DNA of 64,000 nt, taken from positions 1 to 64,000 of the forward strand of contig CATKXR010000002.1 in NCBI GenBank assembly GCA_949840805.1, read 5' to 3'. The notes under the pieces are model-generated. The model worked only from the letters and a program-made list of their open reading frames with translations. It was not told the origin of the DNA and did no database searches. Positions 8,949 to 22,766 of the stretch are shown piece by piece. Made by a program: the position numbers and the translations under genes. Source of the DNA: an uncultured Lachnospiraceae bacterium. GTDB taxonomy: Bacteria > Bacillota > Clostridia > Lachnospirales > Lachnospiraceae. The stretch's first letter is position 1. Each line of letters opens with the position of its first letter.

Positions 8949-9141
8949 TTATTGGATGCCTCCGTTATTTTTATGATATTTGTTGTTTGGAGAGTGCGGT
9001 TACTCTAACGATTATAGGCGATTTTTCCTAAAAAGTCAAAAAAGATAAAATTTTTAAAAAATTCTGAATGGATTTGCCTGCCTCAATCGTATTCCTATTG
9101 AAGCCGGAAAAAGCTATCAATCATGAATGGAGATTAAAGAT

Positions 9142-9483
9142 ATGAAAAAAACATTTGCAGGAATTTTGACAGCAGCATTCGTATTGGGGTTGGGAGTCAC
9201 CAGCGCATTCGCGGCAGGAAGAGGGTGCCATTCTCATGGAGGACACCACGGGGGAGCCTGTGATTATGCTTATTCCTCCTGCCTGTATGCGGATGAGGAC
9301 GGAGATGGGATCTGCGACTACTGCGGGATGAGCAGCAGTGATGAAAATTGGCATGGCGTTCATTTTGTTGATGCCAATAACGATGGAATTTGTGATTATT
9401 ATGCAGACGGCACTTGTCCTCATAATGGTTCCGGGTATGGCCATCATGACGGGTATGTGAGACATGGAAGGTACTGCCGATAG
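9142..9483 (+). CDS. Secreted His-rich protein with EF-hand/dockerin-like loops
   Basis: Signal peptide MKKTFAGILTAAFVLGLGVTSAFA; DEDGDGICDYC and DANNDGICDYY loops; HSHGGHHGG. Confidence 0.7.
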   Translation: MKKTFAGILTAAFVLGLGVTSAFAAGRGCHSHGGHHGGACDYAYSSCLYADEDGDGICDYCGMSSSDENWHGVHFVDANNDGICDYYADGTCPHNGSGYGHHDGYVRHGRYCR

Positions 9484-9501: not shown

Positions 9502-9984
9502 ATGCGGAATGAGCAGGAGGTAGACAGAGCCATTGAGCGGTATTCTGATACGATTCGGCGGCTCTGCATGATACATTTAAAGAATTATGCAGATACGGAG
9601 GACATATTTCAAACGGTTTTTTTGAAGTATGTCCTTAGTTCTGTTTCTTTTGAAAATGAGGAGCATGAGAGGGCCTGGTTTATCCGGGTTACAATCAATG
9701 CCTGTAAAGACTTGCTCAAAAGCTTTTTCCGCAGCCATACGGTTCCGCTTGATGAGATATTGGAACAGCCGGCGCTTTTGCCGCCGGACAACAGGGAGGT
9801 CCTGGAGGCGGTGGTTTCTCTTCCGGCCAAATATCGGGAAGTGGTTTATCTCCATTTCTATGAAGATTATACTGCTCCGCAGATCAGCCGGATTCTGGGC
9901 AAAAATGTCAATACGATTTATACGCTCCTGACGCGCTCAAAGCAGATGCTCCGGGAGAAGCTGGGAGGTGACGGATATGAATGA
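9502..9984 (+). CDS. ECF-type RNA polymerase sigma factor
   Basis: Region 2 (DTEDIFQTVFLKYV...) and region 4 (LPAKYREVVYLHFYEDYTAPQISRILGKNVNTIYTLLTRSKQMLREKL). Confidence 0.9.
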   Translation: MRNEQEVDRAIERYSDTIRRLCMIHLKNYADTEDIFQTVFLKYVLSSVSFENEEHERAWFIRVTINACKDLLKSFFRSHTVPLDEILEQPALLPPDNREVLEAVVSLPAKYREVVYLHFYEDYTAPQISRILGKNVNTIYTLLTRSKQMLREKLGGDGYE

Positions 9985-10735
9985 CAGAATAAAGGAAGCC
10001 TTTGACCAGATACAAGCCGGGGAGGATTTAAAGGACAGGACCAGGTTATTTCTCCTGCAAAAGACGGGAAGAACAAAAAAAACATGGAGAATGAGTGTTC
10101 AGCCCCTTGTCTCTGCTGCTGTGTGCCTGTTGTTTCTGTTGTTTGGCGGCCATTGGTTCTATTTTACCCCCACGGCAAAAATCAGCATTGATGTCAACCC
10201 ATCCATTGAATTGGGGATTAACCGGCTGGACCGGGTGATTGTGGTGGAAGCTTATAATGAGGACGGGCGGGAATTGGCCGCTTCCCTGAATATCCGTTTT
10301 AAAAATTATCAGGACGCGGTGAGCCAGATCCTGGAAAATGAGCAGGTGGCAGTTATGTTGTCCCAGGATGAGGTGATCACCATCACGGTTATGGAATCCA
10401 AGGGGCCTCAGTCGGTGCGAATCCTTTCTGACATGGAATCCTGTGCAGCCAGACATCAAAACACCTATTGCTATTCTGCCGATTCCGGATCAGTTGCAGC
10501 GGCACATGAACACGGGATGTCCTGCGGAAAATACCGGGCTTTTTTGGAAGTGCAGAAGCTGCGGCCGGATATTACCCCGGATCAAATCCAGAGTATGACC
10601 ATGAGGGAGATCCGGGATTTGATGGAACAGGCGCCGGGGGATGAAAACGGAAGCGCGGGAGGAAGTGACGAGGCGGAAGCATCCTGTAACCGTCACAGAG
10701 GGCATGGACATCACGGCAATGGACATGACAGGTAG
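9968..10735 (+). CDS. RsgI-like transmembrane anti-sigma factor, His-rich C-terminus
   Basis: TM segment then KISIDVNPSIELGINRLDRVIVVEAYNEDG (RsgI-type motif); C-terminus RHRGHGHHGNGHDR; overlaps the sigma ORF. Confidence 0.7.
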   Translation: MTDMNDRIKEAFDQIQAGEDLKDRTRLFLLQKTGRTKKTWRMSVQPLVSAAVCLLFLLFGGHWFYFTPTAKISIDVNPSIELGINRLDRVIVVEAYNEDGRELAASLNIRFKNYQDAVSQILENEQVAVMLSQDEVITITVMESKGPQSVRILSDMESCAARHQNTYCYSADSGSVAAAHEHGMSCGKYRAFLEVQKLRPDITPDQIQSMTMREIRDLMEQAPGDENGSAGGSDEAEASCNRHRGHGHHGNGHDR

Positions 10736-10781
10736 GGACAAGGCCTGCATGATTATCCGATAATCGTGCAGGCCTTGTCCC
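10735..10781. repeat. 47-bp near-perfect palindrome between convergent genes
   Basis: GGGACAAGGCCTGCA-T-GATTATC-C-GATAATC-G-TGCAGGCCTTGTCCC; no clear T-run on either side. Confidence 0.9.
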
Positions 10782-10808: not shown

Positions 10809-10922
10809 TCAGCGGTTACTTTTAACTTGCTCGCCACAGGAATGGAAATAACCGCATATGGAAGCATTACAACTTTTCGCTTTCTCACTGGCGATCAATT
10901 TCGGGGGAATATACTTTTTCAT
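10809..10922 (-). CDS. Putative RiPP precursor peptide, 37 aa, three Cys
   Basis: MKKYIPPKLIASEKAKSCNASICGYFHSCGEQVKSNR; RBS GGGAGG lies inside the 3' end of the radical SAM gene; not in the ORF track because of its length. Confidence 0.65.
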   Translation of the reverse strand: MKKYIPPKLIASEKAKSCNASICGYFHSCGEQVKSNR

Positions 10923-12246
10923 TTGCGCACCTCCCTTCTAAAGAATATATAGATTGTTTTGCTTCTGTAATCATGCATGTATCGGACCCTCTGTCCAGCT
11001 TCCCGCCATTTTCTTTATACACACATCCAATACAGACAGAACAAAAATCCCTTTTTTTGCATTTTCCGCATTCTGGGTTCATCTGGTTGAACTGCAATGA
11101 AAGGAATTCGTTTAGAACAGAAGATTTGCTCCACACATCGGCAATCCTGCTCTCTTTTACATTACCAATCTTAAAATCGATTCCATTGCAGGGATGGATA
11201 TTCCCATATGGATCGAAGGACAACATATTCCGTCCGGCATTACAGAAGTGATCTGCCCTGTGTCCGGATACCTTGTCCGGCAGAAGTCCATATTGAACCT
11301 GCATACGGATTATCTTGCCATACTTGTCAGGATCCAGTAAGCGGTAGGGATCCGCGCTTTTTCCGCCGTGGGTCGGCGCAATCACCAGGCTGGTTGTGAT
11401 GTCAATATTCAGCCGTCGGGCTAATTTTATGAGATCCTCAAAGGCATCAAAATTCTGTTTCATGGCAACCGATTTGATGTAGGTATCGATACCTGCGCAT
11501 TTGCAGATAAGCATCGTTTTCAGGCTTCGTTCAAAGGAACCGGCTACTTGCGTGACAGCATCGTGTGTTTTGGCATCGCCTCCGTAGAAGCTGAAGGAGA
11601 TGCTGTTCGGCCGAAGTGCAAGTATTTGATCCAGAAGGCTGTCGCTGATCGAATATCCGTTGGTATAAATATTCAGAAGCATTTTCTTGCTTTTGACATA
11701 TTTTGCGATTTCGAGAAAATCCGGGTGAAGCGTCGGCTCTCCTCCTGTCAAAAGGATACTCATGCACCCCAATTCTTCCAACTGGTCTAAAATCCCGAAG
11801 TAATCTTCCGCCTCCAGTTCCGTCTTTACATCCGGCGGATCGTCTATATAACAGTGGATGCAGCGTTCATTACATCGGTAAGTTAACTCCAGCGTGGCAT
11901 TCAGCAAAATTCTGTTTTCTGAACAAGTCTCCTGCACAGATCTGCCGATCCGGTTCTCAAAACAATCCTCCTTTTCCTGTGCATCATCCAAAACGATTTG
12001 ATTCTGAATGAGCCCATCGACAAAAGAGCTGATATCCTCCCAAAAGGCTCTGGCATCTGTAACATGGTACTGTGTAATCAATTGCCTGCACAAGAATTCG
12101 ACCGTACATCCAGGGTTGTCTGATATAATCTCCAAAATGTCGAATACAATCTCATTGAACAGATAGTCTTTTCTTTGAACGACATGCCGCAGATAGACCT
12201 GATGATCGATCAGCCGGTAATAGACGTCATTATGGATCTTCATCAA
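10885..12246 (-). CDS. Radical SAM/SPASM peptide maturase with N-terminal PqqD-like (RRE) region
   Basis: CNERCIHC (CX3CX2C), LTGGEPTLHPDF, C-terminal Cys motifs CNAGRN...CNGIDF...CGKCKKRDFCSVCIGC; N-terminal ~90 aa resembles PqqD. Confidence 0.85.
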   Translation of the reverse strand: MMKIHNDVYYRLIDHQVYLRHVVQRKDYLFNEIVFDILEIISDNPGCTVEFLCRQLITQYHVTDARAFWEDISSFVDGLIQNQIVLDDAQEKEDCFENRIGRSVQETCSENRILLNATLELTYRCNERCIHCYIDDPPDVKTELEAEDYFGILDQLEELGCMSILLTGGEPTLHPDFLEIAKYVKSKKMLLNIYTNGYSISDSLLDQILALRPNSISFSFYGGDAKTHDAVTQVAGSFERSLKTMLICKCAGIDTYIKSVAMKQNFDAFEDLIKLARRLNIDITTSLVIAPTHGGKSADPYRLLDPDKYGKIIRMQVQYGLLPDKVSGHRADHFCNAGRNMLSFDPYGNIHPCNGIDFKIGNVKESRIADVWSKSSVLNEFLSLQFNQMNPECGKCKKRDFCSVCIGCVYKENGGKLDRGSDTCMITEAKQSIYSLEGRCANEKVYSPEIDRQ

Positions 12247-13552
12247 CCATCTCCTTTGCGGCAGCCGAGAATTTATCTGCGATTTTAGCGACTATTTTTG
12301 CCTTATCCTCATCAGTGGTTTTACGTCCACGCAAAACATCAGGATTCGAAATATTATGCAGGCGGTCAAGCTCTGCCTGCGTTGTGGCACAAGCCTCCAG
12401 AAGATTTTCCTGGGTCACAGTCCCAGGATTCTTGATAACCGCATTAATACATCCCTGCTTAACCGCATTGCGGATATCCCGTCCGCAGAAATCGTATTCT
12501 GCAAGCTTGTCCAGATCCACATCCTCACTCAATGGAATATTCAGTTTTGCGCCTTCCCCTACGGGATATAGGTGCCTCTTCCAGATTTCCTTTCGTGCCT
12601 GAAAATCCGGTCGTTCCATTTCTACGCAAACCAATCTGGTCAAAAAGGCCTTATCATAATTTTCAATCAGGTTGGTAGCAAAAATAACGATGCCATCATG
12701 CTCTTCAAGGCTCATCAAAAGCTGGCTGCGCATGGAGTTAATGGTCTGGGAGGAAGATTCGCTGGTGTCAGTCAATCTGGCGGAAAGCATGGAATCCGCT
12801 TCATCGATAAACAGTACCGCGTCTTGTTCCTTTGCAGCCCTGAAAATCCCTTTCAGGCGCTTGGGACCCTCTCCGTGATATTTGCTTTCAATATCCGCAT
12901 AAGAGGCCCGAATGATTTTTTTCTTTAAACGGTCTGCAATGGCTTCTGCGGCCATTGTTTTTCCCGTTCCGGAGCTGCCGTACAAATTCAGAAGTACAGA
13001 TGGGCTCATAATGGAACCCAGTCCCCAGTCCTCAAACAAAACCTGCCGGTTTTCAAGAATTGCAATGGCAGAAAGCAGGCTTTTTTTCACTTCCTCTGAT
13101 ATTACCAGGCGGCTGAAAGTGTACCTGGGCGGCTCTGCCTGAAACTGTGCCGCAAGCCGTTTGTACTCATCCTCCAGATTGTCGGATTCAGGTGCCGGCG
13201 CTTTGCTTCCGATGTCGGTACCAACTCCCGGAACATCCTTTTGCTGCTTGCAGGCCACCCGGCCGGAATAACATATTTCTTTGGGGAGAACAGAGGACAA
13301 TCTCCTTGCGATCCCTTTTGCCATCTCTTGTCCCCGCTGAATGGGGTTGTTCACTCCCTCTGTCGGATACTTCTCTAATACGATGACCATGTCATACTTT
13401 GGCGCGTTGGCATCACATACTTCGATTTCCGGCACAGGCTGGTTGGGAAACGCACTGTTAAACTCGCTGTATACTATGTTTTGAATATTCTGCAGTGTCA
13501 GATGATCGATGCTTCTCGCCGAAAAACCTGTACACAATACGTAAATTTTCAT
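12230..13552 (-). CDS. AAA+ ATPase (classic FtsH/Cdc48-type module)
   Basis: Walker A LYGSSGTGKTMAAEAIA, Walker B AVLFIDEADSML, FATNLIENYDKAFLTRLV. Confidence 0.9.
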   Translation of the reverse strand: MKIYVLCTGFSARSIDHLTLQNIQNIVYSEFNSAFPNQPVPEIEVCDANAPKYDMVIVLEKYPTEGVNNPIQRGQEMAKGIARRLSSVLPKEICYSGRVACKQQKDVPGVGTDIGSKAPAPESDNLEDEYKRLAAQFQAEPPRYTFSRLVISEEVKKSLLSAIAILENRQVLFEDWGLGSIMSPSVLLNLYGSSGTGKTMAAEAIADRLKKKIIRASYADIESKYHGEGPKRLKGIFRAAKEQDAVLFIDEADSMLSARLTDTSESSSQTINSMRSQLLMSLEEHDGIVIFATNLIENYDKAFLTRLVCVEMERPDFQARKEIWKRHLYPVGEGAKLNIPLSEDVDLDKLAEYDFCGRDIRNAVKQGCINAVIKNPGTVTQENLLEACATTQAELDRLHNISNPDVLRGRKTTDEDKAKIVAKIADKFSAAAKEMVDEDP

Positions 13553-13566
13553 TTCGTATCTCCTCG

Positions 13567-13950
13567 TCAGATGGAAGTCTTATCAAAGATTAAGACATTG
13601 TTATTCGTATCAAACGCATTCTGCAAAGTGCTGGCAATGCCATCGTTGCTGCGCAGTTTTTCAATATCAAGAATGTCATCGTCCGTATCAAGATTGTCGT
13701 AATTGGCAATAATGACATCATCATCTAAAATATCTATATTATTTATGCCATGGTTGGCCGATTCAATTGCAGTTTTGATAACACTGCCTGGGAGGACGAC
13801 AGTATGCTTATGTTTTTCCAGATATTTCAAAATAAGTTGTTTAATTTTCTTACCGGTGATGAATCCAATAACCAGAGTTGCTGCTATAGCAGCAAACAAG
13901 GCGATCAGTTTGGCAGCGCCCAAGCCTGCAAGCCACGTTATAATCCCCAT
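13567..13950 (-). CDS. Hypothetical small protein, N-terminal TM
   Basis: MGIITWLAGLGAAKLIALFAAIAATLVIGFITGKK; in operon with preceding genes. Confidence 0.7.
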   Translation of the reverse strand: MGIITWLAGLGAAKLIALFAAIAATLVIGFITGKKIKQLILKYLEKHKHTVVLPGSVIKTAIESANHGINNIDILDDDVIIANYDNLDTDDDILDIEKLRSNDGIASTLQNAFDTNNNVLIFDKTSI

Positions 13951-14388: not shown

Positions 14389-14670
14389 TTATTCATAAGC
14401 CACATCCTGCACATATAAGCCGCTTACCGTACTTGCGGAAATTTCGACCTCGCAGTCTTTTTCGTCATCATCATTCAAAATATCCAGCTTTACAGTTTTT
14501 CCGCCGCTCTGCTCGATGATTTCTTTGATAACAGCTTTCTTTACTCCGGTTCGATTTCCTATCGCATTGCGGATTGTCTCCCAGAGATTGGATCGGTTCA
14601 GAACGGTGACGGTAATCGCAAACACAGCGCAGGCAAACAGTCCGCCCAAAATTAAGTAAGTCAACCACAT
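14389..14670 (-). CDS. Hypothetical small membrane protein (93 aa)
   Basis: MWLTYLILGGLFACAVFAITVTVL TM then soluble domain. Confidence 0.65.
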   Translation of the reverse strand: MWLTYLILGGLFACAVFAITVTVLNRSNLWETIRNAIGNRTGVKKAVIKEIIEQSGGKTVKLDILNDDDEKDCEVEISASTVSGLYVQDVAYE

Positions 14671-14698: not shown

Positions 14699-15115
14699 TT
14701 ACAGTTCGAAAACCAAAATCCCGTCTTTCTGCAGAGAATCCGATAATTTAGAAGAAAGCTGCCCATAGTTAATCATTCTGTGCGCCATACAATTATCCTG
14801 GCTGTCTAACACGACCTGAAGCAGGTAGAACTGCAGGTCAATTTCAGAATCCTTCTTATAACCCAAGCGGTCAATCCATTCCTCGGTTGGCTTTAACAAA
14901 ATTCCCTGTTTTACTTTTGGATGCTGCTTCTTCTGGTCCATAAACCAGTCTTTGCATTCTTTTCCGTATAACGTTTCTGTACAAAAGCTGTTTTTTGTCA
15001 GCATTGAGAGGGGCTTTTTCCTGTGGCTGTCCCTCCAGAAGAAATACCCGGTTCCGCCGGCCACGCCGACGACTAAAGCAACCAACAAAATCGTTGAGAT
15101 CTTAAAGGCCATCAT
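14699..15115 (-). CDS. Hypothetical membrane-anchored protein, paralog of next
   Basis: N-terminal TM; C-terminal VVLDSQDNCMAHRMINYGQLSSKLSDSLQKDGILVFEL matches the 149-aa neighbour. Confidence 0.7.
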   Translation of the reverse strand: MMAFKISTILLVALVVGVAGGTGYFFWRDSHRKKPLSMLTKNSFCTETLYGKECKDWFMDQKKQHPKVKQGILLKPTEEWIDRLGYKKDSEIDLQFYLLQVVLDSQDNCMAHRMINYGQLSSKLSDSLQKDGILVFEL

Positions 15116-15117
15116 CC

Positions 15118-15567
15118 TTATCCCTCCATTACTAAAGTGCCATTGTTGCCATCGAGAAGCTGCGACAATTTCTCGCTTATCTTGCTGTAATTAACCAACT
15201 GTGTGACGGACACATCTCCCGTTTCATCCAAGAGCGAAAACAGCACATAGCTTTTGGCATCCAGGGGTTTCCCGGTTGAGCTCAACTGTTTGGCAAGATT
15301 CGGGGTCAGGCGGATAATAGAGAACTTATGGCCGGCTGTCTTGCCATTGCACTGCTCCTGAAACCATTTTTTTGCAAAAGCCCCTGTCAGGTTTTCCGTA
15401 ATCAACTGCTCTGTCAATAGAACACGTTTCTCCTTCTCCCACTGACGATATTCTTTGGCTGCATCGCGCTGGTCATCCATCAGGCTTTTTCCGATCCCCA
15501 AAGCAACGCCTATGGTTGCCGCAACCCCTAATGTTTTTCCCAAGGTCCAACTTTTGTCATTTTCCAT
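15118..15567 (-). CDS. Hypothetical protein with N-terminal glycine/alanine-rich hydrophobic segment
   Basis: MENDKSWTLGKTLGVAATIGVALGIGKSL...; SLLDETGDVSVTQLVNYSKISEKLSQLLDGNNGTLVMEG. Confidence 0.7.
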   Translation of the reverse strand: MENDKSWTLGKTLGVAATIGVALGIGKSLMDDQRDAAKEYRQWEKEKRVLLTEQLITENLTGAFAKKWFQEQCNGKTAGHKFSIIRLTPNLAKQLSSTGKPLDAKSYVLFSLLDETGDVSVTQLVNYSKISEKLSQLLDGNNGTLVMEG

Positions 15568-15646: not shown

Positions 15647-17242
15647 TTATTTCTTGCCGCACATTTTTCTGTATGATACGATTATATAAGGAATCGAACG
15701 TTTTGACTTTCCTTTCTGGAAAGAAACCAGCATTCTGTTTCTATGATATATTTCTATCACCCCATGGTTTTCCTGATATGTTATCGCGGATATAGCGATT
15801 TCTTTCCAAGAAAACTTGTGCGGAAAGCCTTTTCCCGCGTAAAAATATAGTCCGAAATCTGTCAGCGCCAACCATTGGTCATTGCCCCAATCATCTTTTA
15901 TGCGTTCAAACGCATAAATTCGATTAGATCTTGGAATCCATAACAAACGTCGGATCTCTTCTGCCTCTTTGTCATAAAACCGCGCGTCTGACTGGATGCG
16001 GCAGTCTGACTCCCCTGAAATCTTCTCGTAGGCTTTGAAAATCTTTCGAAGATCTTCCTCCGCTTTTGTGTACGGATTGCTTTGCACAACCTCCTTCCCG
16101 CTCTCTTCCAAAAGCGTGTACAGCCAATTTGCCATATCCTGATTGGGAGATATATAACCTCCATAACCTTTTTGGAAGCAGGAGGACAAAACCCGTAACG
16201 CTTTCGGGTGCAACTGCAGCGCCGCCTTGCGCAGGCAGGAGAACCCATAACATACATTGGGTGTCAGCGTGCTTTTTCCATTGACATAGTTTACACCCAG
16301 CATATACAATGCGTCACTTTGCCCGCAGGCTCCTGCCGCATGCATAAGGGCCAGGCTGCGTTCAGCATCTTTGGAGGCCAGGCTGCACGCCTTTTCGTAG
16401 AGCTGGTTTCCGTTTTGTACGTCCTTCAATCCAAATTCAGATATGCTGTTAAAATATACGTCGGAAAAGTATTTCCGGCATTCCCCTCCCTGATACCACT
16501 CATAAAGCTCTGCAATCCTCCATGTCCCAAAAGGAAGCTGGAATCTTTTTATCATAGAAGGACCTATGCCCATCCCGACTAAGCTGCATTTGCGTTCCTT
16601 GGGAGCTTCTTGTGCTATCCGGCGGTAATCAAAGCCTGTATCAAATGCATTTACGCCACCACCCATTCCCTTAATCAATATCTGCATTGCCGGCTCAATC
16701 CGGCCTGCCGCGATTGCCGCCCCACGATCTGCCGTATAGTCCGCCGCCAGCTTCCACTGCAGCATCAGGGACTTTATGGATAGGGCAGCGGCCTGGCCGA
16801 ACATAGGGATTCGTGCCAGAATCAGGTCAAGCAGTTTGTCAATATTTAAATACCGGACATGCCCGTACCGGATGTGTGCCAGAGAATATCCGAACTGTGC
16901 GGTAAGTTCTTCGTCCGTGAACTGTTCCACACATTGATTGCCCAGGACAAGGAAGGCATCCTCGTCCGTTCCTCTAATATCAACTGTCAGATGGTCCTCA
17001 AAGGATAGGTATAATTTGACAGGCTTCTTGACTTTAAGGCGCTCTGCGGCGGTCTGGTACAGATCGAAAAGCCGGGGATATGTAGTATTGGTTATCAGGA
17101 AATTTCTGCCTTGCAATTCTGCAACCGTAGACAGTTCTGCGCAGGCACTGTGTAACGTGTCCAATATTAACTGAAACCCGTCCGCATGTGTCAACCGGTT
17201 AAGTGCCGACAGCTCGTCCCTACACTGGAATTCTTTTATCAC
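15647..17242 (-). CDS. Degenerate M48-like protein with Sel1-like repeats
   Basis: ELTAQFGYSLAHIRYGHV at the HExxH position; WKLAADYTADRGAAIAAG; ALYMLGVNYVNG... Sel1-like. Confidence 0.6.
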   Translation of the reverse strand: MIKEFQCRDELSALNRLTHADGFQLILDTLHSACAELSTVAELQGRNFLITNTTYPRLFDLYQTAAERLKVKKPVKLYLSFEDHLTVDIRGTDEDAFLVLGNQCVEQFTDEELTAQFGYSLAHIRYGHVRYLNIDKLLDLILARIPMFGQAAALSIKSLMLQWKLAADYTADRGAAIAAGRIEPAMQILIKGMGGGVNAFDTGFDYRRIAQEAPKERKCSLVGMGIGPSMIKRFQLPFGTWRIAELYEWYQGGECRKYFSDVYFNSISEFGLKDVQNGNQLYEKACSLASKDAERSLALMHAAGACGQSDALYMLGVNYVNGKSTLTPNVCYGFSCLRKAALQLHPKALRVLSSCFQKGYGGYISPNQDMANWLYTLLEESGKEVVQSNPYTKAEEDLRKIFKAYEKISGESDCRIQSDARFYDKEAEEIRRLLWIPRSNRIYAFERIKDDWGNDQWLALTDFGLYFYAGKGFPHKFSWKEIAISAITYQENHGVIEIYHRNRMLVSFQKGKSKRSIPYIIVSYRKMCGKK

Positions 17243-18126
17243 AGGCTTTCCCCCATCCTGCCGCTAAATACAAGCAGCTCTTTGTACCGTTTCGGTAACC
17301 ATGTTATGTCACTCAGCATTGCGTTTGCAGTCTGTAAAGACTCATCCAGGGCCGACATTTCCCAAAATCGTTTTGCCTGCGGCATATAGAGGCTTTCTTC
17401 AGATTCAAAAGAGAATCGGTCTAAAAACCCTGCCGCAATCCGCCCGACAAAAATACTCCGGCATGCCAGCCCGCAGTCTCCTGTTACAACATAGCAGGTT
17501 CTGTCATATGTGAAATAACGGCACCGCTCCCAATTGTTTAAAACAGCTTCCAGCCCCATTGCCAAGATGTGGGGGATGGGAAGCATCTGCATCCCCGTGC
17601 TTAATGCAAAGGAAAGCATGGCCCCCTTATGGTGTCCCGCAACAATGCCTGCGGCTTGACCGGCAAGCAATCCATACAGCATATCCTTTGGTTCGTTGGC
17701 AATTGCCTGCAGATATGTAGATGAGATTATACAAAAAGGAGTATTGATTCCTCCCAGGGAAATCCTTTCCTCATAATCATGCAGCATATAGATATCGGGA
17801 ATGTCCTGAATGCCAAACTGCCTGCATACAGTTTTCCAGATATTAAGGACATATGGTGCGTTTGTTTCAGTCAACTTTAGGCAGGACGCCTCAAAAAAGG
17901 TCCTGTAGTCTTCTTCCATGTGGCTTTTCGCGATCCATTCATATACCATTCCTGCAGCGGGATGCTGAAATACATTGGACAGCATTTTGGAATCGCTGGG
18001 ATGTTGTACTTGAGAGAGTTCTATTGACAGTTCTTTTTTCATTATCATTGTACTATGTCCTTCCTCTCCCTCCAAACCGGCGTAAGAGGGTTTGATAGCC
18101 GCTTTGATACCACCAGTACAAATCAT
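17239..18126 (-). CDS. Degenerate M48-like protein
   Basis: LYGLLAGQAAGIVAGHHKG at the HExxH position; WERCRYFTYDRTCYVV. Start may be internal (e.g. MIMKKELSIELSQ). Confidence 0.55.
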   Translation of the reverse strand: MICTGGIKAAIKPSYAGLEGEEGHSTMIMKKELSIELSQVQHPSDSKMLSNVFQHPAAGMVYEWIAKSHMEEDYRTFFEASCLKLTETNAPYVLNIWKTVCRQFGIQDIPDIYMLHDYEERISLGGINTPFCIISSTYLQAIANEPKDMLYGLLAGQAAGIVAGHHKGAMLSFALSTGMQMLPIPHILAMGLEAVLNNWERCRYFTYDRTCYVVTGDCGLACRSIFVGRIAAGFLDRFSFESEESLYMPQAKRFWEMSALDESLQTANAMLSDITWLPKRYKELLVFSGRMGESL

Positions 18127-18877
18127 TTAGCATAACATTTGCCGCACCTTCCATGTAATTGGCATCAATCACCTTCTGTGCTACGCGATTCATTAAATTA
18201 AGGCCTGATTCATCCAAATGGACTTCTTTCAGATATTTTTCTATATAACGTTCGGCCGCTATATCATTGTAAAACAGCAGGTTTGTTTCTTTCAAAGGGA
18301 ATCCAAGCTCCAGGAAATGGCATTTAGCTGCTGAAGCAATTGACTGGCAGGCCAGAAGCCCGCCTCGATCTGAGGTCATGTCCGCTAAGTGGAGAAAACG
18401 CTTAAACTCCATTTGTGGAATGGCAGTTAACATGTTAAAACCCATATATGCAGCAATTGTAGTCATAGGAACATGGCCTGCAAGAATCATAGAAATGGCG
18501 TTACCAAATAAATAGAAAAGCATTCCATCATCAAAGTTGTCCACAACATAGTCAGCAACGAGCAGATACGGATGCTCGCTGCCATATGGCTGAACTGCTT
18601 GTGAAAAGGAATGGTACAGATAGAGATCGGGAACGGTTGCACAATCCAGAATTTTGCAAGTTTCTTCCAAAATATCAATGACCTTGGGAGCCGTTTTTGC
18701 GGTCAGTTGTACATAACTTCCCTGGATTACGGAAGCGTTCCATTTAATTTGCACATCACTGATATATTGAAGGCTTTTCTTAAAAAAATCACTTTGTTCT
18801 ACCTTTTCTTTTGCAAGCTGTTCGTCCGGGTGGATATAATCTTCTGTTTTTAACCCATTAAAGTGTATCCTTACCAT
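18053..18877 (-). CDS. Degenerate M48-like protein
   Basis: LFYLFGNAISMILAGHV at the HExxH position; HLADMTSDRGGLLACQ matches the M48 (E)xxxDRAGLL motif region. Confidence 0.6.
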   Translation of the reverse strand: MVRIHFNGLKTEDYIHPDEQLAKEKVEQSDFFKKSLQYISDVQIKWNASVIQGSYVQLTAKTAPKVIDILEETCKILDCATVPDLYLYHSFSQAVQPYGSEHPYLLVADYVVDNFDDGMLFYLFGNAISMILAGHVPMTTIAAYMGFNMLTAIPQMEFKRFLHLADMTSDRGGLLACQSIASAAKCHFLELGFPLKETNLLFYNDIAAERYIEKYLKEVHLDESGLNLMNRVAQKVIDANYMEGAANVMLNDLYWWYQSGYQTLLRRFGGRGRT

Positions 18878-19142: not shown

Positions 19143-19298
19143 AGTGGCAACCGTTTCGACAGGTCAGCAGGTTCACTGCGGGGACCATGAATCAGCGCTT
19201 TTAGGTTTTCGGCCTATGGATAAAGGGAAGATTTGCTTTCGAAGACATAATTCATATAAAAGGGATAGTGTGCCTGAGCTTAATTGCTCAGGCTTTTT
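19143..19298 (+). ncRNA. Candidate structured small RNA of unknown family, ending in an intrinsic terminator
   Basis: Promoter directly upstream; internal hairpins GTCaGCAGgttcaCTGCgggGAC and TAGG..CCTA, ATGAAT/ATTCAT closing pair; GCCTGAGC-ttaatt-GCTCAGGC-TTTTT. Confidence 0.5.
19272..19298 (+). terminator. Rho-independent terminator
   Basis: GCCTGAGC TTAATT GCTCAGGC TTTTT. Confidence 0.8.
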
Positions 19299-19442
19299 GT
19301 GATCCTTTTTTCAGGGGATGGATTCCTTCGGGGACCCAAATTCTCTCAAAAAGAAGAGTCTGCGGCATCCGAAAAATTGGAAGACACAAAGACACATGCT
19401 ACGGCAGGGATTTTTCAAGCGTTTGTTAAGAGGAGACAAGAC

Positions 19443-22400
19443 ATGTATATTGCGGATTTACATATTCATTCTCGCTATTCCCGGGCTACAAGCAAAGAAT
19501 GTACCCCGGAGTACCTGGATCTCTGGGCCAGGAGAAAGGGAATTGACCTGCTGGGTACAGGGGATTTTACCCATCCGGCGTGGCGGCAGGAATTGGAGGA
19601 GAAGCTGATTCCAGCAGAGGAGGGGCTGTACCGGCTGAAAACGGAGCTGCAGTTGAAGGATTCGGTTTTGGGGCAGGAGAGTTTTCCCCGATTTGTCATT
19701 TCCGGGGAGATCAGCTCCATCTATAAAAAAAACGGGCGGGTGCGGAAGGTCCATAATCTTATTTTGCTGCCTGGCCTTTCCCAGGCGGAACAGTTGGCGA
19801 GACGGCTGGAAGCGATCGGAAATATTCATTCTGACGGCAGGCCGATTCTGGGGCTGGACAGCCGGGATCTGCTGGAGATCACCCTGGAGGTGTGTCCCAG
19901 GGCTGTTTTTGTGCCGGCCCATATCTGGACGCCCCATTTTTCCATGTTCGGGGCATTTTCAGGATTTGACACGGTGGAGGAATGTTTTGAGGATCTGAGT
20001 CCTTATATCCATGCGATTGAGACCGGGCTTTCTTCCGACCCGCCTATGAACTGGCGGCTGTCTGCTTTGGACCGGTTCCAGATGATATCCAATTCGGACG
20101 CCCATTCGCCTGCCAAGCTGGGGCGGGAAGCCAATCTTTTAGACATTTCCCTGTCTTATGAGGGATTGTTCGGCGCTATACAGGAGGGGAGAGGGCTTGC
20201 AGGGACCATTGAATTTTTTCCGGAAGAGGGGAAATATCACTATGACGGGCATCGCAAATGCCATCTGTGCTTAAGCCCCCGGGAGGCAGAAAAATATCAG
20301 GGGAAATGTCCGGTATGCGGAAAAAAGCTGACGCTTGGAGTCTCTCACCGGATTGAACAGCTTGCCGACCGGGAGGAAGGGTATGTACGTCCGGACGGGG
20401 TGCCTTTTGAGAGCCTGGTGCCGCTGCCGGAGGTGATTGCTGCCTCTACAGGCCATTCTGCCACCAACTCAAAGGTTCAGAGGCTGTACGGGGAAATGCT
20501 GGCCGGGCTGGGAAACGAGTTTTCTATTTTGCGGGAACAGCCTGTAGAGGCGATCCAAAGCCTGGCTGGTTATCATATCGGAGAGGGGATCCGGCGGCTT
20601 CGCCTGGGCAGGGTGCGGCGTTTTCCGGGATTTGACGGGGAATATGGCATCATCCGGCTTTTTGAGCCGTCGGAGCTTAATTCCATGGAAGGGCAGATGA
20701 GCCTGTTTGAGGTAAAGGGAGGCAGCGGGCAGCCGGAGAGCCTGCGACAAAGGAAAACGGAAGCATGGGAAGAACCGGGAGATGGGGAAACTTTTGCAGG
20801 GCCGCAGGAAGACAGAACTTTTGGCGCGCCGCAGGGAGACCGGCCGCCGTTTTCCCAGTCTGGCCTGTCCGGGCAGGAAGAAGGAAAGAGGAAAGAAAAG
20901 GAGACGGCGGGGGATGATGTTGTTCTCAACGAAGAGCAGCTTTTGGCTGTGAGGCTTGTCTCGCCTGGAATCGCAGTGGTGGCAGGGCCGGGAACCGGCA
21001 AGACCAAGACTCTGGTTTCCCGTATACTTTACCTGCTGCAGAGCCGCAGGGTAAAGCCGTCGGAGATTATGGCTGTCACGTTTACCAACAAGGCTGCCCA
21101 GGAGATGAAAACACGTCTCGAGAGGCAGCTTGGCAGGAAGAGCGCCGTAAAAAAGCTTCGGATTGGCACATTCCACGGGCTTTGCCACGAGCAGTTGAGG
21201 TCATTGGGGGAGGAATATATACTGGCAGAAGAAAGTATGGCTCTGGAACTTGTGAGAGAGGTGGCCGGGGAGCTGGGGATTCAGGGAAGCGTCAAGAAAC
21301 TGAGGCAGAGAATATCCCAAAGAAAATTGGAGGCGGCAGAGCAGAGAGCCGGAAATATTTGGGAAAACAGCGGATGCGGGGGGAAGCGGGAAGATCAGGC
21401 CGCCTCAGAACTTGAGCGGGCGGCAGAAGCTTATGAGAACCGTTTGTCGGCTCTTGGCGCGGTAGACTTTGACGACCTTCTCATAAAAGCGCTGGAGACG
21501 GCAGAGTCGGGGCTTAAACCTGTCCCGTATCTTCTGGTAGACGAATTTCAGGATATCAGCCCTTTACAGTACAGATTGATTCAGGCATGGAGCCGGGGAG
21601 GAAAAGAGGTCTTTATCATTGGGGATCCGGATCAGGCAATTTATGGGTTTCGGGGAGCGGATGAAAAAAGCTTTTCGCGTTTTTGCCAGGACAAATGTGC
21701 CGAAAGGATCTGTTTGAGAAAAAATTACCGCTCCACTCCGGAGATCCTGGCGGTGTCTGCCATGATATTAAAAGACAGCGGCTCATCAAGGGAAAAGAAG
21801 GAGGAGGGGAATAGCCTGCTGGAGCCGGTACAAAAATCCGGTCTGCCTGTCCGGCTGGTGCAGGCGCCGGATCCAAGGAAGGAGGCAATCTTTGTGGCAA
21901 AGGAGATCAACCGCCTGGTTGGGGGGATTGACATGCTGGATGCCCAGGAAGGATTTTTCTGCCCGGATGAGCGTGTGGTCAGAAGTTTTGGCGATATCGC
22001 AGTGCTGTACCGGACTCACCGTCAGGCAGAGCTTTTGGAAACATGCCTGAAGAGAGAAGGGATCCCTTATGTGGTGATTGGGCGGGAGGATTTTCTGGAA
22101 GAAGATGCGGTGCGCGCAAGCCTGGGATTTTTCAGAAGCCTTCTCAATCCACACGACCTGCTGTCAAGGGAACTGTGCCTGAAGCTATTGTGGAAGACCG
22201 GTAAGGACGGGGCGTCTGACTGTGCCTATCCGGTTCTGGCAGAAAAATATAAAAACTTATGGAAACGGGGAAAACCTCAGAAACTCTTGGATTTATGGCG
22301 GGAAGATATGGGATTTCAGGAGAATCCGGCCATGGAAAAGCTTGCCGCCATGACCGTGTTTTATAAAACCATGGAGGAAATGATGACGGCCCTTACCTTT

Positions 22401-22766
22401 GGCAGGGAGAGTGATATAAAACGGTGGGGCGGGAAGCATTATACTTCGGATGCCGTGACGCTGATGACCATGCATGGCTCTAAGGGGCTGGAATTTCCGG
22501 CCGTGTTTGTCCACGGCCTTCGCGCAGGCATGGTTCCCCTGGAATACAAGGGAACGGAGACGGATTGGGAGGAGGAGAGGAGGCTTCTTTATGTGGCCAT
22601 GACCCGGGCGAAGGAGGAGCTGGTCCTCACAAGCTCCGGGGAAGCCTCGGTGTTCATAAAGGGGCTGCCGGAAGATATCCTCGTCCGGGAACAGACCGGG
22701 CAGAAGTCCAAGAGCTGGGAACAGGTTCGGCAGCTGAGCCTGTTTGACAGAGAGGACTGGGGATAG
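19443..22766 (+). CDS. EndoQ-like PHP domain fused to UvrD/Rep-type helicase
   Basis: N-terminus MYIADLHIHSRYSRATSKECTPEYLDLWARRKGIDLLGTGDFTHP; C-terminal AGPGTGKTKTLVSRI, VDEFQDISPLQ, GDPDQAIYGFRGA, TMHGSKGLEFPAVF. Confidence 0.85.
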   Translation: MYIADLHIHSRYSRATSKECTPEYLDLWARRKGIDLLGTGDFTHPAWRQELEEKLIPAEEGLYRLKTELQLKDSVLGQESFPRFVISGEISSIYKKNGRVRKVHNLILLPGLSQAEQLARRLEAIGNIHSDGRPILGLDSRDLLEITLEVCPRAVFVPAHIWTPHFSMFGAFSGFDTVEECFEDLSPYIHAIETGLSSDPPMNWRLSALDRFQMISNSDAHSPAKLGREANLLDISLSYEGLFGAIQEGRGLAGTIEFFPEEGKYHYDGHRKCHLCLSPREAEKYQGKCPVCGKKLTLGVSHRIEQLADREEGYVRPDGVPFESLVPLPEVIAASTGHSATNSKVQRLYGEMLAGLGNEFSILREQPVEAIQSLAGYHIGEGIRRLRLGRVRRFPGFDGEYGIIRLFEPSELNSMEGQMSLFEVKGGSGQPESLRQRKTEAWEEPGDGETFAGPQEDRTFGAPQGDRPPFSQSGLSGQEEGKRKEKETAGDDVVLNEEQLLAVRLVSPGIAVVAGPGTGKTKTLVSRILYLLQSRRVKPSEIMAVTFTNKAAQEMKTRLERQLGRKSAVKKLRIGTFHGLCHEQLRSLGEEYILAEESMALELVREVAGELGIQGSVKKLRQRISQRKLEAAEQRAGNIWENSGCGGKREDQAASELERAAEAYENRLSALGAVDFDDLLIKALETAESGLKPVPYLLVDEFQDISPLQYRLIQAWSRGGKEVFIIGDPDQAIYGFRGADEKSFSRFCQDKCAERICLRKNYRSTPEILAVSAMILKDSGSSREKKEEGNSLLEPVQKSGLPVRLVQAPDPRKEAIFVAKEINRLVGGIDMLDAQEGFFCPDERVVRSFGDIAVLYRTHRQAELLETCLKREGIPYVVIGREDFLEEDAVRASLGFFRSLLNPHDLLSRELCLKLLWKTGKDGASDCAYPVLAEKYKNLWKRGKPQKLLDLWREDMGFQENPAMEKLAAMTVFYKTMEEMMTALTFGRESDIKRWGGKHYTSDAVTLMTMHGSKGLEFPAVFVHGLRAGMVPLEYKGTETDWEEERRLLYVAMTRAKEELVLTSSGEASVFIKGLPEDILVREQTGQKSKSWEQVRQLSLFDREDWG

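Follow-up and report, generated by a model that had tools for sequence, protein, structure and literature searches.

The window analysed here, 64,000 nucleotides of a contig from an uncultured Lachnospiraceae bacterium, contains a minus-strand operon of 11 co-directional genes. It opens with three proteins of predicted M48 fold (referred to below as ps1, ps2 and ps3), which are followed by five small proteins, an AAA+ ATPase, a radical SAM/SPASM maturase and a cysteine peptide. Most of the genes touch or overlap, and the widest intergenic gap is 79 bases. In operon order, the genes are:

18053..18877, minus strand: ps1, 274 aa, predicted M48 fold, NAISM at the HExxH position, third ligand D
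17239..18048, minus strand: ps2, 269 aa, predicted M48 fold, GQAAG at the HExxH position, third ligand Y (the open reading frame spans 17239-18126, with 18048 as the likely start)
15647..17242, minus strand: ps3, 531 aa, predicted M48-fold domain, YSLAH at the HExxH position, third ligand D
15118..15567, minus strand: small protein, 149 aa, N-terminally hydrophobic, paralog of the 14699..15115 protein
14699..15115, minus strand: small protein, 138 aa, N-terminally hydrophobic, paralog of the 15118..15567 protein
14389..14670, minus strand: small protein, 93 aa, N-terminally hydrophobic, with a counterpart in each of the related loci L062, L150 and L151
13964..14368, minus strand: small soluble protein, 134 aa, kept beside the AAA+ gene
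13567..13950, minus strand: small protein, 127 aa, N-terminally hydrophobic
12230..13552, minus strand: AAA+ ATPase, 440 aa, classical clade (PAN/CDC48/FtsH-like)
10885..12246, minus strand: radical SAM/SPASM peptide maturase, 453 aa, CxxxCxxC intact
10809..10922, minus strand: candidate RiPP precursor, 37 aa, MKKYIPPKLIASEKAKSCNASICGYFHSCGEQVKSNR, overlapping the end of the maturase gene

An earlier note on this DNA had described three adjacent M48-like proteins with destroyed HExxH motifs at 15647-18877 on the minus strand, and the reading frames and motifs are as it quoted them. The substitutions listed above were read from an alignment with 11 homologs that have an intact motif (HECGH or HELGH) and come from other genomes of the same family. 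Only ps3 retains the second histidine, and all other zinc-site residues are changed across the trio; the third ligand is E in most of the intact homologs and D in one. None of the three window proteins has the combination of HExxH and third zinc ligand expected of an active M48 peptidase. The trailing GH and the DR motif are kept in all three, in agreement with the reported survival of the latter. The label 'metzincin' used at that time names the wrong class, as M48 peptidases are gluzincins. In addition to its M48-fold domain, ps3 carries a Sel1-like repeat and a predicted beta-rich PH/FERM-like domain at the C-terminus. Sel1-like repeats had been claimed for this protein; we recovered a single one, whose score of 25.8 bits falls short of the Pfam cut-off of 30.7, and the predicted fold matches solved Sel1 proteins. 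As the structure of ps3 was predicted with low confidence (pLDDT 62.6), the PH/FERM-like C-terminus is only a lead. Intact M48-like peptidases are encoded in relatives of the window's family (L005-L011, L014, L016-L018), and those in L007, L009 and L017 adjoin GTPase-like proteins resembling dynamins.

The Pfam M48 model PF01435, suggested in the earlier note as a check, matched none of the three window proteins. Their assignment follows from other evidence. Iterated sequence searches tied ps1, ps2 and ps3 to relatives with intact HExxH, and a profile of eight dead copies matched HtpX (3cqb, E=5.8e-4) through the HExxH region. In a search with the predicted fold of ps1 (pLDDT 78), the 16 best matches, including BepA, ZMPSTE24, BlaR1, HtpX and jannalysin/selecase, were all M48/M56-type or related small metallopeptidases, with weak E-values of 0.08-1.4. 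Sequence and fold similarity together point to an M48 fold for the trio despite the negative Pfam result. Searches of Pfam, NCBIfam, PHROGs and PADLOC assigned neither the M48-fold domains nor the small proteins of the operon to a family, and a genome scan with ps3 alone gave no match.

Four of the five small proteins have a hydrophobic N-terminus, and relatives of the 15118..15567 protein precede AAA+ genes elsewhere. The AAA+ ATPase has intact Walker A (GTGKT) and Walker B (DEAD) motifs. Past the peptide gene, a hairpin at about 10735-10781 resembles a shared terminator by eye; it is without a T run, and the terminator scan did not report it. Also by eye, an ECF-type sigma factor and an RsgI-like anti-sigma protein lie at 9502-10735 on the plus strand, with a small secreted His/Cys-rich protein (9127-9483) just upstream of the pair, and a 1160-aa open reading frame at 19284-22766 on the plus strand resembles a fusion of a PHP-type endonuclease domain with a UvrD-like helicase.

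The maturase has both the CxxxCxxC motif and the SPASM cysteines of radical SAM RiPP maturases, and its profile matches SkfB (the closest solved structure), PqqE, CteB and YydG in the PDB. A PqqD-type recognition domain is indicated by two results: 6 of the 7 maturase family members that were aligned match PqqD in their N-terminal region (the window member did not match at this threshold), and the match to CteB starts at residue 7 and so includes the N-terminus. Because it scores far under every NCBIfam cut-off, the maturase falls outside all the named maturase families of that collection. Given a maturase nearest to SkfB, PqqE and CteB, with relatives that have a PqqD-type domain, the operon reads as a RiPP cluster, apparently without an exporter or active protease of its own, as none was recognised in the cluster. 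Short open frames may arise by chance within an operon; the 37-codon frame of the candidate precursor has a good ribosome-binding site, and a conserved peptide adjoins the maturase in four loci. The peptides of L062, L150 and L151 share MKK.Y.KPAVIA and a CG...CGH core. The window peptide resembles them in its leader and also contains a Cys-Gly pair, but its cysteines are spaced differently; over 30 aligned residues, its identity to the others is 37-47%.

L062, a Clostridiales MAG, was found by a scan with the AAA+ family, and L150 and L151 by a maturase search in the family of L062. These three loci have one gene order: maturase A, peptide, maturase B, ps1, ps2, ps3, small proteins and AAA+ ATPase. 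The trio, small proteins and AAA+ gene follow each other in the same order in the window, whose single maturase is located with the peptide after the AAA+ gene, whereas in the other loci these genes lie before ps1. L062, L150 and L151 each have two maturases, accompanied by one peptide or, in L151, by two tandem variant peptides that lie between the maturases. Upstream of the RiPP-AAA+ cluster, L151:1-4251 encodes a 963-aa kinase-NACHT-like protein and a 413-aa protein. The maturase family is rare: among 397 genomes sampled from the window's family, and likewise among 24 from its genus, it was found in the window's own genome alone, and in the family of L062 it was found in 3 of 201. Searches at the order and class level added only two distant maturases (L157 and L158), on short contigs with no visible M48 or AAA+ genes.

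In all four loci, the M48 sites are dead, with substitutions specific to each copy, and the reading frames are intact; none of the orthologs found here has an intact HExxH, which the earlier note had named as the sign of recent decay. ps1, ps2 and ps3 each form their own clade across the four loci (support 97/98, 100/99 and 99/95), in a tree where the window branches are long and such joins, as the tool warns, may be false; gene order and the shared copy-specific residues support the same grouping apart from the tree. Since each copy groups across the four loci, the triplication and the loss of the zinc site probably predate their split. In comparisons of L062 with L150 or L151, dN/dS is 0.14-0.24 for the dead M48 proteins, 0.13-0.17 for the AAA+ ATPase, 0.13-0.21 for the maturases and 0.03-0.09 for the peptide, which is among the most constrained genes of this group. 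The dead M48 copies are thus under purifying selection. The motif stretches are among the better-conserved parts of ps1, with 12 of 14 positions invariant around DR, and of ps2, with the AG..AGHH stretch; elsewhere, their conservation is less striking. The view that these are catalytically dead M48-fold paralogs that have been retained is therefore well supported by gene order, copy-specific substitutions, clades and dN/dS.

Relatives of the AAA+ ATPase in other phyla also have such small proteins beside them, and most have neither M48 nor maturase genes nearby; for this reason, the AAA+ module may work independently of the peptide. In three loci (L052:7681-10308, L073:9692-12352 and L075:422-3019), a TPR-like protein and a single dead M48 protein with REVYK or RELYM come after the AAA+ gene; these loci also carry a small N-terminally hydrophobic protein and have no maturase. 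AAA+ and dead M48 genes thus occur together even without the peptide. All AAA+-linked M48-fold proteins examined are dead, and the 11 relatives outside such operons are intact.

The retention of the trio as a scaffold or peptide-binding module had been proposed from the M48 genes without the AAA+ partner or the modified-peptide ligand. We infer a similar role and, from the content of the operon, consider the modified peptide the likely ligand and the AAA+ ATPase the likely partner. In this reading, to which we give close to an even chance, a membrane-bound AAA+ motor would handle the modified peptide, and the dead M48 proteins would serve it as peptide-binding adaptors. The maturase would bind the leader of the peptide through its PqqD-type domain and crosslink the cysteine core. 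The M48-fold proteins may then bind the modified peptide, or its target, in their inherited substrate groove without cutting it and present what they have bound to the AAA+ ring, which the small proteins would hold at the membrane. The ring would thread or release the peptide, probably for export or deployment, given that neither an exporter nor an active protease was recognised in the cluster. The Sel1 and PH-like parts of ps3 could serve as docking surfaces. More tentatively, the operon may represent a RiPP architecture of a new type: a membrane AAA+ motor and dead-peptidase adaptors would stand in for the ABC exporter and processing protease, with dead M48 folds as peptide receptors.

A somewhat less probable alternative is that the operon encodes an AAA+-gated defence device, with the modified peptide as effector and the dead M48 proteins as decoys or sensors; these would bind agents that otherwise attack or engage active peptidases, and ATP hydrolysis would set the trigger. 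AAA+ conflict systems with many inactive enzymes have been described (Kaur et al. 2020, PMC7159879), among them FtsH ternary systems whose radical SAM protein likely modifies a peptide effector. Some neighbours of the AAA+ family, among them TerB (L063), kinases (L067, L080) and the kinase-NACHT-like protein of L151, recall NTP-dependent conflict systems. However, the operon proteins include no recognisable vWA or MoxR partner, and matches in the defence libraries reflect generic AAA or radical SAM similarity only. Alternatively, the peptide could be a bacteriocin-like toxin that the M48 trio and the membrane AAA+ ATPase bind and clear for the producer. The sporulation killing factor maturase SkfB as nearest solved structure, the absence of a recognised immunity gene from the operon and the membrane anchoring of the partners would fit such a role, which we nonetheless regard as unlikely, as a single dead M48 protein and AAA+ exist without maturase or peptide in L052, L073 and L075. 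It is less probable still that an active peptidase encoded elsewhere has the trio as its structural partner, in the way that TldD has TldE, and that they remove the leader jointly; leader removal by the heterodimeric metalloprotease TldD/E is known for RiPPs (PMC5810440). Against this, the operon has no active M48 gene, and the only PF01435 matches over the cut-off in the own genome are two M56 BlaR1-like genes. Recent decay of three proteases in one lineage is hardly credible, for it would explain the altered zinc-site residues but is contradicted by the orthologs: the sites are dead at each of the four loci, the residues are specific to the copy, the frames are intact and dN/dS is low.

The adaptor reading concerns a protease fold turned non-cutting three times and retained next to what are probably its ligand and motor, which makes the function of a dead protease testable. 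In addition, mining rules that seek an exporter or protease may misfile RiPP clusters in which neither is recognised. The parts of the operon have precedents; for the combination of dead M48 proteins, AAA+ and RiPP genes, searches of the literature outside subscription papers gave no description and nothing relevant beyond PMC7159879. The IetAS anti-phage system does not fit, as IetA scored 79.6 against an NCBIfam cut-off of 510 bits and no serine protease was recognised in the operon. Like the SKF, SCIFF/CteB, YydFG and PQQ clusters, the operon places a SPASM maturase with a PqqD-type domain beside a short cysteine peptide. It differs from them in that no exporter or active protease was recognised, while an AAA+ ATPase, a set of small hydrophobic proteins and the dead M48 trio are present instead, and in the scores of its maturase, far under every NCBIfam cut-off. 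With the M48 peptidases HtpX, BepA and Ste24/ZMPSTE24, the trio has the fold and the GH and DR motifs in common, and BepA resembles ps3 in that helical repeats are attached to an M48 domain; in contrast to these enzymes, all three window proteins lack HExxH and the third ligand and escape PF01435. The vWA-MoxR FtsH ternary systems (PMC7159879) likewise combine a classical-clade AAA+ with radical SAM and peptide genes and frequent inactive enzymes, but their vWA, MoxR and double FtsH proteins were not recognised in the operon, and a dead M48 trio is not described there ('M48' is absent from the main text of PMC7159879). The FtsHi/FtsH12 complex (PMC8197885) belongs to a plant organelle and has M41 rather than M48 domains, fused in one chain with the AAA+ part. 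With vWA and MoxR unrecognised and FtsHi being M41, both parallels are analogies rather than membership. What the operon would have in common with FtsHi/FtsH12 is a membrane AAA+ with HExxH-less metallopeptidase domains, and the FtsHi pseudo-proteases are linked to ATP-driven protein import in chloroplasts (PMC8197885).
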